Assembly: GCA_020846935.1 (NCBI GenBank)
Contig: JADLCY010000011.1
Coordinates: 62,001-126,000, forward strand
Reading direction: 5' to 3'
DNA: 64,000 nt
DNA from: Gemmatimonadaceae bacterium
GTDB taxonomy: Bacteria; Gemmatimonadota; Gemmatimonadetes; Gemmatimonadales; Gemmatimonadaceae
How positions within the stretch are numbered: position 1 is the stretch's first letter; every line of letters starts with the position of its first letter. The translations under genes and the position numbers were made by a program. Shown here piece after piece: positions 38,649 through 44,391 of the stretch. The notes under the pieces were generated by a model. It was not told where the DNA came from, made no database searches, and saw only the letters and a list, made by a program, of their open reading frames with translations.

Positions 38649-39125
38649 ATGACCGGAGTCCGTGTGCTCGTTGGCACGCGAAAAGGTGCTTTCGTCCTGG
38701 CCGCCGACGGTCCTCGTCGGGACCGGCAGGTGAGCGGCCCGCACATCGCCGGATGGGAGATGTACCACCTCAATGGCTCACCGGCAGAGCCGAAACGCGT
38801 GTATGCGTCGCAGTCGAGCGGGTGGTTCGGGCAGCTCTTCCAACGCTCGAACGACGGCGGCGAGACGTGGGAGCCGGTGGGCAACGAGTCCACGTATCGT
38901 GGGACACCGGGAACGCACCAGTGGTACGACGGCACGCCGCACCTGTGGAGGTTTGCGCGTGTATGGCATCTGGAGCCCTCGCACTCGGATCCCGACACCT
39001 TCGACGCGTACATCGCGCGATGTCACGCACGTGCGGGCGTCGAAAGGTGGGGATCGGTCGCCGAACGTTCGAGTGCTTCCGCACCACCGTCCAGGTTAAG
39101 CCGTGCCGCCTTCACAAGGAGATAG
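38649..39125 (+). pseudogene. Truncated WD40/BNR-repeat (sialidase-like) protein gene
   Basis: The reading frame starts [21 protein letters not shown] and continues through [50 protein letters not shown] and [22 protein letters not shown]. This is the N-terminal third of a well-known exo-alpha-sialidase-like beta-propeller family of about 370 residues. Homology stops near residue 118 (about 39000), after SDPDTFDAY. The remaining ~40 codons are out-of-family sequence that runs antisense into the 3' end of the ECF sigma gene on the other strand. This looks like a deletion or insertion breakpoint, so the gene is most likely non-functional. Confidence 0.8.
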
Positions 39126-40339
39126 TCGCGTTCGGGTCGACTGGTCGTGCGTTCCGCGGCGGCTCGGTAGTGGCGCATCGCCGCCTGAAGGTCTCCCAGC
39201 ATCTCGCAGAGGTGCCCGCGAACTGCATCCAGACGGTAGTGGCTGCTGATTCGAGGGTCGCCGTCCAGAGGCCGCAAGTGTTCCAGGCCGGCCGCGGCGC
39301 CATGCACCATGGCCACAGCCACGGCCTGGTTGAGCACGACGACGGGGTTGTCGGAGAGCCGGCACAGCAGTTCGTACAGCGCGAGGATCTGTGCCCAATC
39401 GGTCGCCGCGAAATCGTGGGCCTCGTCGTGCAACGCCGCGATGGCCGCCTGCACCTGGTACGGACCCACCCGGCCTCGCGACAGCGCCGCGGAGACCAGG
39501 GCCACCCCCTCGTCGATGAGGCCGCGGTTCCAACGCGACCGATCCTGCTCGTCGAGCGGGATGAGCGATCCCTGCGCATCCGTGCGTGCTTCGCGGCGCG
39601 CGTCGGTGAGGAGCATCAGCGCCAGCAGGCCCGAGACCTCCGCGTCGTCAGGCAGCGCGGCGTGCAGACCACGACCCAGACGAATCGCTTCGCTCGACAA
39701 GTCGGTCCGCTGCAACACATCCCCGGCGGTGCTGGTGTACCCCTCATTGAAGGTCAGGTAGAGCACCTGCAGCACGGCCGCAACCCGCAGTGTCCGCTCA
39801 GCACCGGACGGCGGCGCAAACGGCACACCGGATGCACGGATCGACTGTTTGGCGCGGCTGATGCGCTGTGCCATCGTCGATTCGGGGACAAGGAATGCCC
39901 TGGCGATTTCCGCGGTCGTGAGTCCGCCCACCGCGCGGAGCGTCAGTGCGATCGCCGACGGGGGCGTGAGGGACGGATGACAACACATGAACAGCAGCCC
40001 CGGTGAATCATCGTCCTGCACCGCCGGCTCGTCCGGGGCCGGCGCGAACGGCGCGTCGATCGCCTCCTGTGTCGCCGCGGCCTCCTCGCGCCGGCGGCGT
40101 GCCGCCTCGCTCCGCCAGTGATCGCTCAGTCGCCGAGACGCCACCTGATAGAGCCAGCCGCGCGGGTTCTCCGGGACACCGTCGGCCGGCCACTGCGACG
40201 AGGCGGCAATCAGCGCCTCCTGCACCGCATCTTCGGCCGCCGCGAAGTCCCCATGACGGCGCACGAGCACGCCGAGAATCTGAGGCGTGAGATCGCGAAG
40301 CAGGTGCGTCACATCGGCACCCGCGTGCAAGGCGCTCAC
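39023..40339 (-). CDS. ECF42-type RNA polymerase sigma factor with C-terminal TPR region
   Basis: The 438-residue ECF sigma factor has sigma-2 ([40 protein letters not shown]), [21 protein letters not shown], and sigma-4 helix-turn-helix [20 protein letters not shown] with SRAKQSIR. A long helical C-terminus follows with [38 protein letters not shown] and [15 protein letters not shown]. Sigma factors with this TPR-like extension next to a DGPF protein define the ECF42 group, which lacks a classical anti-sigma factor. The GTG start at 40339 overlaps the DGPF gene stop (GTGA). Confidence 0.93.
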
Positions 40340-40737
40340 CCCTCGGTACGCGGCGCGCTCATGACCTGTCGCACCTCGATCGCCATGTTCAGCGGCTGTC
40401 CGCCCTTTCCCGGCGCGGCCGACGCCTTTGCCGCCAGCTCCCACGCGCGCTCCACGCGATCCACATCCACGATCCAGTAGCCCGCGAGGAACTCCTTGGA
40501 CTCCGGGAACGGTCCATCCGAGACGACAGGGAGCCCGTTGCTGCCCGCGCGCACGATGCGCGCCTCACCGGGAGACGCCAGTCCCTCGGCCGCGACAAAC
40601 TCACCCTGCTCGACGAGGTCCTTGTTGTACCGGTGCATGAACGCAATGTGCGCCGTGATATCGTCAGGCGACCAGCTGGAAATCTGGTGGTCGGCGTTCG
40701 CGCGGCCAGGCGCGTGCATCATCATCATGAACTTCAT
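40336..40737 (-). CDS. DGPF (YCII-related) domain protein
   Basis: The 133-residue single-domain protein MKFMMMMHAPGRANADHQIS contains the signature VVSDGPFPESKEFLAGYWIVDVD and a C-terminal AIEVRQVMSA. It belongs to the YCII-related/DGPF family, the conserved partner and usual target gene of ECF42 sigma factors. It is first in the two-gene unit and is translationally coupled to the sigma gene. Its biochemical role is unknown; YCII folds resemble small dimeric ferredoxin-like enzymes. Confidence 0.9.
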   Translation of the reverse strand: MKFMMMMHAPGRANADHQISSWSPDDITAHIAFMHRYNKDLVEQGEFVAAEGLASPGEARIVRAGSNGLPVVSDGPFPESKEFLAGYWIVDVDRVERAWELAAKASAAPGKGGQPLNMAIEVRQVMSAPRTEG

Positions 40738-40792: not shown

Positions 40793-42580
40793 CTACGAAC
40801 GCGGCAGCGGTGGAATCGTGATCGTTGCCGGCGAGGCCGCGAGCGCTTCGTAGGCACACAGGACGATCTCGAGGTCGCGACGGGTCGCCGAGGCGGGAAG
40901 CGATGGCGCGCGCTCCTCGACGATCGCGCTCAGGAACTCCCGCATCTCGCCCTGATAGCCGGTACGGATCGGCCCGCGCAGGCGCGTACGGACGCGTTGG
41001 TGCTCAGGCTTCATCAGGCGATCGCGCAGCGCGTAGGGTCGCACGTACGAAAGCAGGCGCGTGAGCGGACGCATCGCGGCCGGAAACCAATCGACGCAAG
41101 GATCGTTCGGCCAAAGGTGGATCGTGCCGCGATCGCCGAGCACGACAAGGTCCGGCAGGTGGCCGCGACTCGTGGCCCAGCTCGTGAGCAGGTGCGCCTC
41201 CCATCCCAATCGGCTGGCGAACGTGACCTGTGCGCTGTCCTCCGCTTCCATGCGCACATCGATCTGCATCGCACGCGAGGCACGGACCGCGTCCGGCTCA
41301 CCCATGAGCAGCCGAAGGGCATGCACATAGTGCACGCCGATGTCCATGAGAACGCCACCACCCATTCGCTCACGTTGGGCCGCCCAGCCTGTGCTTCGGC
41401 GGTACCCGCCCGCGTGGGCCAGCAGGTAGAGCGGCTCGCCAATGTCCCCCTGCCGGATGCGCCTGACCGCCTCCGCGATGCCGGGCCGAAAATGCATGTC
41501 TTCGGCGCACATCAGGATGGTTCCCGCGCGTCGGGCGGCATCGATCATCGCGTCGGCATCGGCCAGCGACGTGGCGATCGGCTTTTCCACGAGGGCGTGT
41601 TTCCCTGCTACGGCCGCGCGCTGCGCCGCGGAGGCATGGAGATCATGGGGGATGGCGAGCGTGAGACCCTGGATGCGCGGGTCGGCGAGCGCGGCGTCGA
41701 GGCCGGTGAAGTGGCCCGCAAGCCCCAGTTTGGCAGCCAGGCGCGCCGTCCGGTCGGCATCGCGGCCGCAGAGATAGAGGCGCGCCGACGGGTTGGCCTC
41801 ACGCAGCAACCGGAGGTGGAAGGTGCCCCACCCCAGCCCCACCACGCAGATATGCATCTCGCGCCGCAGCACCGCGGGCGCACGGCTCGGCGCGATGGCG
41901 CGTCCGGTGTCTGAAGCACCGTGCGCGAGCACGCGAGCGGCCTGTTCGAGCGTGACTCCGCCCTCGTCGAACGTGCGCCTGGCAATGTCGGGGGGTGGCG
42001 GCGGTCGCAGGCGTGAGCGCGCCTTCCTGAGCAGATGCCAGAGCCCCGTCTCCGCGAGCACGCGCCTGAACGTGTGACTCAACACCGGAAACCGGCTCTG
42101 TGTGCCCGAGATCCGCGAGAACATGAGCGGGCGCTCGCCGCGCCGCCGCGCATTCGGCACCGCGTCGATCACGCGGCCCACGATGAGCGTGTGATCGCCC
42201 ACGTCATGGATGGATTCCACCTCGCAGAATACGCTGCGCAGCGCGGCGGGCAGCCACGCCACGCCGTGCCGCTCCTCCAGGTCGACGTCGAGCACCGCCG
42301 CCTTGGTTGGTTCGCGGCGTCGGAGGCCCATGAGGCGGAGCCCGAGGTCGCGATCGGCAGCCCCAAGCACGTTGACCGCAAAGCGACCGGTGCGGCGGAT
42401 GTTGCCCACGATCGGATACAGCGCGTTCGGGTTGATGGCCACCCGGGGCGGTGTGACGCTGACGTGGGCGAATGTCGCCGTGAGATAGACCTCGGCATCC
42501 TCCACACTCCCCGAGGAGAGCACCGCGCACACGTTCTGCGTGCGCGTGTCCCAGATGTCACGCGAGGGCCAGCGCATCAT
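40793..42580 (-). CDS. Flavin reductase-like domain fused to Gfo/Idh/MocA oxidoreductase
   Basis: One uninterrupted 595-residue frame holds two enzymes. Residues 1-165 are a flavin-reductase/flavoredoxin-type FMN domain (TATFAHVSVTPPRVAINPN, GRFAVNVLGAADRDLGLRLMG, VESIHDVGDHTLIVGRVIDA). A Pro-rich linker (LRPPPPPDIARR) follows. From about residue 242 there is a Gfo/Idh/MocA NAD(P) domain (MHICVVGLGWGTFHLRLL, HALVEKPIATSLADADAM, MCAEDMHFRPGIAEAVRRI) and its C-terminal domain (GGGVLMDIGVHYVHALRLLMG). The start ATGATG at 42580 overlaps the stop of the upstream flavin reductase. An internal start at the MHICVVG methionine is conceivable. Reaction unknown. Confidence 0.85.
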   Translation of the reverse strand: MMRWPSRDIWDTRTQNVCAVLSSGSVEDAEVYLTATFAHVSVTPPRVAINPNALYPIVGNIRRTGRFAVNVLGAADRDLGLRLMGLRRREPTKAAVLDVDLEERHGVAWLPAALRSVFCEVESIHDVGDHTLIVGRVIDAVPNARRRGERPLMFSRISGTQSRFPVLSHTFRRVLAETGLWHLLRKARSRLRPPPPPDIARRTFDEGGVTLEQAARVLAHGASDTGRAIAPSRAPAVLRREMHICVVGLGWGTFHLRLLREANPSARLYLCGRDADRTARLAAKLGLAGHFTGLDAALADPRIQGLTLAIPHDLHASAAQRAAVAGKHALVEKPIATSLADADAMIDAARRAGTILMCAEDMHFRPGIAEAVRRIRQGDIGEPLYLLAHAGGYRRSTGWAAQRERMGGGVLMDIGVHYVHALRLLMGEPDAVRASRAMQIDVRMEAEDSAQVTFASRLGWEAHLLTSWATSRGHLPDLVVLGDRGTIHLWPNDPCVDWFPAAMRPLTRLLSYVRPYALRDRLMKPEHQRVRTRLRGPIRTGYQGEMREFLSAIVEERAPSLPASATRRDLEIVLCAYEALAASPATITIPPLPRS

Positions 42581-43044
42581 CCGCGCAGATCGGCCACGAG
42601 GAGGTGACGCCGGAACTTCCGCCGGCTGTCGAACTCGCCAAAGAGGATCGTGCCGAGAAAGATCGTGTGATCCCCCACGGGAATTCGATCGTAGACCTCG
42701 CACGCCGTGCAGGTCAACGCGCCATCGAGGAACCAGAACGGGCTCCGGGGCGCGCGGAGGGAGAGGCCGGCGCACTTGTCCAGCTCGCGCCCCGACACGG
42801 TGCCACAGGTGCGCGCGACGTCGCCCTGGTCGGCGGCGAGCAGTGACAGGCTGAAGGTGCCACCAACGAGCAGGAGTTCGTGCGTGCGACTCGTGGTGGC
42901 GACGGAAACCCACAGTGCCGTCGGGTGGTGCGCCAGCTCCGAGAAGCACGAGACCGTCATGGCGTTGCGTTCGCCGCCGGTCTCCGTCACGAGTAGTCCA
43001 ACAACGCCATCGAGGAGGGCGCCCTCTACGTACGGAGACTTCAT
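42577..43044 (-). CDS. Flavin reductase family protein
   Basis: The 155-residue FMN-binding split-barrel protein has GALLDGVVGLLVTETGGERNAMTVSCFSEL (split here by family pattern), TALWVSVATTSRTHELLLVGGTFSLSLLA and CEVYDRIPVGDHTIFLGTILFG. It likely reduces flavin with NAD(P)H or serves as the reductase partner of another flavoenzyme. ATG 43044 is preferred; a GTG at 43077 is in frame. The stop overlaps the ATG of the fused flavin reductase-Gfo/Idh/MocA gene, so two flavin-reductase domains are made from adjacent coupled genes. Confidence 0.85.
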   Translation of the reverse strand: MKSPYVEGALLDGVVGLLVTETGGERNAMTVSCFSELAHHPTALWVSVATTSRTHELLLVGGTFSLSLLAADQGDVARTCGTVSGRELDKCAGLSLRAPRSPFWFLDGALTCTACEVYDRIPVGDHTIFLGTILFGEFDSRRKFRRHLLVADLRG

Positions 43045-43188: not shown

Positions 43189-44391
43189 CTACCGCGGCCA
43201 CCCCTCCTGCGGCAGGCGGGTTGTGATCCGCAACGCGTTCTGGAAGTACACCTTCTTGAGCACCTCGTCAGGCAGGTCGATCCCGTAAAGCTTCCAGAAC
43301 GCGTGGTAGTCGCGATAGTAGTCGAAGTAGTCATCGCGCGTCTCGAAGACGCGCCAGTAGTACGGGTACTCTTCCGGTTGGAACGAGTCCTTGCCGAAGA
43401 GGATGCGGTCCTGGAACCTGACGAAGAAGTCGTGCGCCGCCCGTGGTTGGCGACCGATGTCGTAGAGGACCGCACCAACTTCGGAGTACAGGTTGGGGTT
43501 TCCGTCCATCATTCGCCCGAGACGGGCGAGATCGTTGGCATGCCAGCCCAGGTGCGCGATCACGAACGTCGTCTTCGGGTTGCGCCGGACGAGGTTGTCG
43601 CGCTCCTCCATGAGCTGCTCGAACGACGGATACTGATCCGCCGGATAGCGCCGCCCGGGAAACAGGGCCAGCTCGAGCCAGCGCTCGTTGTTGTAGTCGA
43701 TGGGCTGCCAGAACTCCTGCGGGTCTGCGGTATGAATAAAGACCGGAAGTCGCAGCCGTGCGGCCGCGGCCCACACGGGATCCAGTTCGGGATCGTCGAT
43801 GCGCAGCCGTGTTCCATCGGCCTTTCGCGTCGAGAGGCCAAAACCCTTGCCGATCTCGCCGATCCCCACGGCCCCTGCCGCAACATCAGCCTCGAGCTGC
43901 TCGACCGCCTTCGCCGCCCAGCCCGGCCCCACGTTCCGAAAGTCGATGCCGGTCAGGATGCGTACGCGATCCTTCATCGTGGGCGACGCCTTCACCAGGT
44001 CTATCTGCCGCTTGAGCTGATCGCCCGACGTGTTGTTCGCGGCGATGATCATTCGCACGTTGAGGCCATCCAGCGCCTGGCCGAGCTGCGCCAGTCCCTC
44101 GGCGCTCTGCAGGTACGCACCGCCGGGGTGTCCGTGGTAGTCGATGGCCGGGAACTTTGCCTTCGGCACCGGATGCTCCGGCGCCTTGAGCGTGTTGCGC
44201 GGCCGATAGTCCACGATGCTCGGCGCGGGCATGGTGGGGGCCTGGCAGTTGCGCGGACGCACCTCGGTCATCCCGGCCGGGCACTGTTCTCCCGGCTTGA
44301 TCTGTGTCCCCTGCCCACCGCCCACCTGCGCGAACGGGACCCGGGGGACAGCGACCATCGAAGCGAGCAGGACGAGGTGGTGCGCGCGCAT
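43189..44391 (-). CDS. Secreted amidohydrolase (metal-dependent hydrolase)
   Basis: The 400-residue protein has a signal peptide (MRAHHLVLLASMVAVPRVPFAQ) and a Cys-containing spacer (GEQCPAGMTEVRPRNCQAP). An amidohydrolase-2 TIM barrel follows: AIDYHGHPGG (HxH metal site), GIDFRNVGPGW, VFIHTADPQEFW, FVIAHLGWHANDLARLGRMM and ILFGKDSFQPEEYPYYW (terminal Asp). It is periplasmic by its leader. The reaction is unknown; the fold fits decarboxylase or hydrolase activity on a small ring or lactone substrate. It lies 144 nt upstream of the flavin reductase pair and may share its regulation. Confidence 0.85.
   Translation of the reverse strand: MRAHHLVLLASMVAVPRVPFAQVGGGQGTQIKPGEQCPAGMTEVRPRNCQAPTMPAPSIVDYRPRNTLKAPEHPVPKAKFPAIDYHGHPGGAYLQSAEGLAQLGQALDGLNVRMIIAANNTSGDQLKRQIDLVKASPTMKDRVRILTGIDFRNVGPGWAAKAVEQLEADVAAGAVGIGEIGKGFGLSTRKADGTRLRIDDPELDPVWAAAARLRLPVFIHTADPQEFWQPIDYNNERWLELALFPGRRYPADQYPSFEQLMEERDNLVRRNPKTTFVIAHLGWHANDLARLGRMMDGNPNLYSEVGAVLYDIGRQPRAAHDFFVRFQDRILFGKDSFQPEEYPYYWRVFETRDDYFDYYRDYHAFWKLYGIDLPDEVLKKVYFQNALRITTRLPQEGWPR

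Follow-up and report, generated by a model that had tools for sequence, protein, structure and literature searches.

In certain soil bacteria of the family Gemmatimonadaceae, a flavin-reductase domain joined through a proline-rich linker to a Gfo/Idh/MocA domain forms a real and conserved protein fusion, which is always paired with a stand-alone flavin reductase. In the window, the whole stretch of 64,000 nucleotides that was analysed, the two genes lie on the minus strand, the stand-alone reductase (FR1, 155 amino acids) being followed by the 595-residue fusion (FR2, linker and Gfo domain), and they share an ATGA (Table 1). Our preferred reading, held tentatively at a probability of about 0.35, is of a single NAD(P)/flavin redox enzyme with one subunit from each of the overlapping genes; the substrate of its Gfo domain would be sugar-like, and the reductases would exchange hydrides with flavin.

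Table 1. Features of the two-gene unit and its upstream neighbour; positions are those of the window.
Feature	Position	Strand	Evidence and remarks
Amidohydrolase (PF04909, Amidohydro_2), signal-peptide-like N-terminus	43189-44391	(-)	144 bp upstream of FR1
FR1, leading gene of the pair, for a stand-alone short-chain flavin reductase	42577-43044	(-)	PF01613, 95 bits
ATGA overlap, where FR1 ends and the start codon of the fusion lies	42577-42580	(-)	Same overlap in both relatives
Fusion protein FR2-linker-Gfo/Idh/MocA, 595 aa	40793-42580	(-)	Pfam; unbroken relatives, 79% and 48% identical; purifying selection
FR2 domain, residues 19-156	42113-42526	(-)	PF01613: 71 bits as an isolated domain, 68 bits within the whole protein
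Linker, residues 157-241, with predicted helices followed by PPPPP and the conserved RTFDEGGVTLEQ	41858-42112	(-)	Without a Pfam family
Gfo Rossmann domain, residues 243-358, with short GLGWG and EKP (K333)	41507-41854	(-)	PF01408 (GFO_IDH_MocA), 65 bits
Gfo C-terminal domain, residues 370-580, with D413-x3-H417	40841-41473	(-)	PF22725, 76 bits; PF02894, 49 bits

All Pfam domains of FR1 and of the fusion score above their curated cut-offs (27 bits for PF01613). Both FR1 and FR2 belong to PF01613, with matches in the relatives too, and the assignment to the Gfo/Idh/MocA family is given by the Rossmann domain (PF01408) together with the C-terminal alpha/beta domain, also in the relatives; the latter is matched by GFO_IDH_MocA_C3 (PF22725) at residues 370-487 and by GFO_IDH_MocA_C (PF02894) at residues 374-580. 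The proline run of the linker occupies residues 193-197. Pfam, the coordinates and the ATGA overlap are all in agreement with the layout described in an earlier note on this DNA, namely a stand-alone reductase overlapping by a few bases a 595-residue protein made of a reductase, a Pro-rich linker and a Gfo domain. The coupling of the two genes, also proposed there, is kept in three species with the identical overlap, and from this overlap we infer that translation of FR1 and the fusion is probably coupled. A scan for promoters and terminators at the unit gave results near chance level.

Relatives of the whole fusion are present in a second genome of the same genus (G003, 79% identity) and in a genome of another Gemmatimonadaceae genus (G400, 48% identity). 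In both, the FR1 gene is located directly 5' of the fusion gene and is 80% and 45% identical, respectively, to FR1 of the window. The two G003 proteins are the same as those in JACMLI010000158.1 of Gemmatimonadaceae bacterium ES-bin-29. Comparison of the window with G003 gave a dN/dS of ~0.10 for FR1 (dN 0.14, dS 1.41), ~0.19 for FR2 (dN 0.17, dS 0.93), ~0.34 for the linker (dN 0.33, dS 0.96) and ~0.09 for the Gfo domain (dN 0.12, dS 1.25). Since these values are low across all four parts, the entire frame is translated and selected. A sequencing error that joins two genes, which the earlier note had named as a possible flaw, is ruled out by the unbroken fusion in three separate assemblies; likewise, with purifying selection acting on both FR2 and the linker, an internal Met before the Gfo domain does not start the sole product. 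With three conserved copies and purifying selection throughout, the reading of the frame as two genes joined by an assembly or sequencing error is rejected as exceedingly improbable.

The unit is rare within the Gemmatimonadota samples that were searched. A profile of FR2 and the linker identified the fusion in 3 of 179 Gemmatimonadaceae genomes, among them two of the five genomes in the genus of the window, and the same three fusions were recovered from the order-level sample of 288 genomes. In the phylum sample (395 genomes) one fusion was found, the window's own, and neither G003 nor G400 was among the matches. The Gfo profile separates the fusions (at least 647 bits) from all other Gemmatimonadota proteins found (144 bits or less). 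A mobile or plasmid origin was considered and rejected, the fusion being absent from 72,556 plasmids and 50,697 phage records; no relatives of FR1 or FR2 were found in viral contigs. A wider scan of genome contigs with two peptide patterns matched ES-bin-29 only, and these patterns are so narrow that the lone match says nothing on absence from other phyla.

In the Gfo domain, K333 (of the EKP motif), D413 and H417, which we take to be catalytic residues of the Gfo/Idh/MocA family, are invariant in all three fusions. The glycine motif (GxGxxG) reads GVGQWG in G400, whereas the window (GLGWG, 41825-41839) and G003 (GTGWG) have one residue fewer; therefore NAD(P) binding is not certain. The best sequence and fold matches of the domain are glucose-fructose oxidoreductase (GFOR), levoglucosan dehydrogenase and aldose-aldose oxidoreductase. 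Its nearest relative found is a stand-alone protein of 344 amino acids encoded on a viral contig (IMGVR_UViG_3300045240_000178, 1456-2490), with ~42% identity and a score of 264 bits, the next match reaching 179. In the tree, the phage protein and the fusions form a clade (100/99) within which the fusions alone are grouped (100/91), the phage branch being long. The phage gene, a candidate auxiliary metabolic gene, lies among integrase, exonuclease and topoisomerase genes, and PF01613 was not found in the record of this contig.

FR1 and FR2 are distant homologues (29% identity over 121 residues). They group together in a small tree, though with weak bootstrap support (53/94) and long branches, and might or might not be tandem duplicates. 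The motifs of HpaC-like reductases have been defined (PMC11795597) and include a C-terminal GDH; in ThdF its His is in contact with flavin or nicotinamide. In our alignment every FR1 and every FR2 of the three species has GDHT. The (S/T/C)xxPP motif is found in FR2 of the window (SVTPP) and of G400 (SLYPP); FR2 of G003 has SLSPA, and FR1 carries LAHHP or VSHYP instead. In BorF the FAD contacts are T62, N64 and S65 (PMC13327496). FR1 keeps a flavin-contact segment (MTVSCF, T-x-S-x-F) which, as compared to the T-x-N-S of BorF, has Asn replaced by Ser and Ser by Cys or Phe; this T-V-S-C/F segment resembles that of other reductases in the alignment. In FR2 of all three fusions one residue is deleted from the isoalloxazine-contacting segment (LTAT-F or MSGN-F), the gap falling at BorF Ser65, beside Asn64, at a place whose exact position is alignment-dependent. 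FR1 therefore looks like a conventional flavin binder and FR2 like an altered one. Both of the flavin domains claimed in the earlier note do match PF01613, but this deletion makes flavin binding by FR2 uncertain.

The earlier note had also pointed to a secreted amidohydrolase just upstream. The PF04909 domain and the signal-peptide-like N-terminus are in line with this, and the gene is possibly co-transcribed with the pair, but the family of the neighbour is not conserved in the relatives: the same-strand upstream gene encodes a PF01425 amidase in G003 and a PF01804 penicillin acylase in G400. An amide hydrolase is thus present beside all three units, each from a different family. The category was picked after the data were seen, hence this adjacency is only a lead, and the compound processed by the pathway may be one that amide cleavage sets free. 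PF01425 has 7-8 matches per unit-bearing genome; the chance that one of them falls no more than two genes from the unit is ~0.5-0.7% per genome, assuming ~4,300-5,300 genes in total. On the G400 contig (C329, 8760-13239) short overlaps link three consecutive genes: the penicillin acylase stop overlaps the inferred FR1 start (GTGA), and FR1 overlaps the fusion through ATGA; downstream of this chain are another PF01425 amidase, two genes from the fusion, and a 421-residue protein without an assignment.

No oxygenase was identified among the genes beside the unit in the window, G003 or G400. Two oxygenase families, HpaB and bacterial luciferase, were searched for; HpaB is absent from all three unit-bearing genomes, and the window's genome has one luciferase-family gene, on another contig. 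Downstream of the unit (39023-40737) are genes for a YCII-domain protein and then a sigma-70-family (ECF-like) factor with DUF6596. A 158-residue ORF on the plus strand (38649-39125) may be a truncated gene: judged by eye, its start is like that of a BNR/sialidase-like repeat protein, but it stops early and runs into the sigma-factor gene.

In the coupled redox enzyme that we favour, the Gfo domain would use NAD(P) to oxidise (or, in the reverse direction, reduce) a cyclic polyol or a sugar-like compound, and a split barrel, probably an FR1 and FR2 pair because this fold works as a dimer, would move hydride between the NAD(P)H made by the Gfo domain and FMN or FAD. The nucleotide would be re-oxidised locally and the electrons passed on to oxygen or another acceptor. 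The main flavin site would be in FR1, with its canonical flavin-contact segment, and FR2 would serve as an anchor to the dehydrogenase. Electron transfer, which the earlier note had already suggested as intramolecular, heterodimerisation and the substrate are what we infer for the unit, and several observations are in favour: the pair and its overlap recur in three species with all parts under purifying selection, the Gfo catalytic residues and the GDH of both reductases are retained, FR2 is changed at the BorF S65 position while the FR1 segment is kept save for two substitutions, the nearest solved Gfo relatives act on sugars and no oxygenase was identified adjoining the unit. Against this stand the short glycine motif in the window and G003, and the low confidence of the structure models outside the Gfo domain. 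The AlphaFold model of the fusion (mean pLDDT 65.8) is confident in the Gfo domain only, with FR2 mostly below 65 and much of the linker below 50, and that of FR1 is unusable (pLDDT 34). The modelling suggested in the earlier note as a way of seeing whether the two cofactor sites face each other was thus informative for the Gfo domain only.

A more specific form of the proposal combines an obligate FR1/FR2 heterodimeric split barrel having unequal flavin sites with a sugar-acting Gfo domain. Such a protein would be a self-contained sugar:flavin oxidoreductase with internal NAD(P) recycling, in effect an oxidase assembled by combining a dehydrogenase with a flavin reductase. The mixed barrel is proposed because FR1 is conventional, FR2 is altered and the two are constantly coupled; we consider this specific form unlikely.

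The main rival to the coupled redox enzyme is a fusion of pathway steps without electron coupling, where the reductases supply free reduced flavin to a monooxygenase from another locus, with the Gfo domain catalysing a later or separate step, for example one that follows amide hydrolysis in the same catabolic pathway. The best NCBIfam flavin-reductase model for FR2 is HsaB, a monooxygenase reductase, of four plasmid loci related to FR2 that were inspected, three adjoin HpaB-like or LLM monooxygenases, and the amide hydrolase adjoining all three units would suit such a pathway. However, a monooxygenase was identified beside none of the three units, HpaB is missing from the three genomes and the single luciferase-family gene of the window's genome is on a different contig; moreover, two reductase copies and a covalent fusion are left unexplained. 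We regard this rival as a genuine possibility, if a somewhat unlikely one.

It is rather unlikely that FR2 is a degenerate, non-catalytic split barrel acting solely as a docking or dimerisation module which brings FR1 to the Gfo domain. The flavin-contact deletion in all three fusions would fit such a role, as would an FR1 always encoded directly before the fusion with a 4-nt overlap, but FR2 keeps GDH and mostly SxxPP and its dN/dS is low (0.19); isoalloxazine binding in this fold is mainly by backbone atoms (PMC13327496), so flavin binding may survive. Improbable, in our estimate, is a chance fusion of two independent enzymes that brings no advantage beyond co-regulation or a fixed stoichiometry. 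The linker is less constrained than the domains (dN/dS 0.34), of low confidence in the model and possibly flexible, and the Gfo clade also occurs unfused in a phage, all of which this reading would accommodate. It is opposed by the linker itself, whose length, PPPPP and RTFDEGG are largely kept between the window and G003 and partly in G400, and by the fact that no unfused bacterial member of the Gfo clade was found among the 288 order-level or the 395 phylum-level genomes.

Our search, which was confined to the published literature, found no description of a flavin reductase-Gfo fusion, in agreement with the earlier note, to which this domain order was not known as a described architecture. 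We file the protein as a new architecture from two known families, flavin reductase and Gfo/Idh/MocA. If the coupling is true, nature has here connected a pyridine-nucleotide dehydrogenase to a flavin reductase within a single chain, which would make the design attractive for cofactor-recycling biocatalysts, and the FR1/FR2 pair would allow ideas on how split-barrel heterodimers evolve to be tested. Should it be false, what remains is still a domain architecture new to both of these very large families, and one whose distribution is rare and sharply bounded.

Among known systems, the HpaC-like short-chain reductases of PF01613 (HsaB, PheA2, StyB, BorF and ThdF) have this family assignment and the GDH motif in common with FR1 and FR2. 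However, these named members stand alone and serve an oxygenase or halogenase, whereas here one copy is fused to a Gfo domain and a second is coupled to it, an oxygenase neighbour is lacking, FR1 is without SxxPP and FR2 is missing a residue of the flavin-contact segment. GFOR, aldose-aldose oxidoreductase and levoglucosan dehydrogenase share both complete Gfo domains and the EKP lysine with the fusion at ~20-24% identity; the fusion differs in its Rossmann glycine motif, one residue short, and it alone has a flavin-reductase domain ahead of the Gfo domain. We rejected an assignment as GFOR because His (H417) stands at the D-x3-(H/Y) position where GFOR has Tyr (MDIGIY). The stand-alone phage protein belongs to the same Gfo clade and shares the distinctive C-terminus of the fusions and, with those of the window and G003, a short GxxWG motif (GTKWG), but it lacks a flavin-reductase domain and its neighbours are phage genes. 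Cyanobacterial flavodiiron proteins (PMC4390876) likewise contain a flavin-reductase-like domain as one module in a fusion with further redox modules, but their partner domains and chemistry differ from those of the fusion described here.
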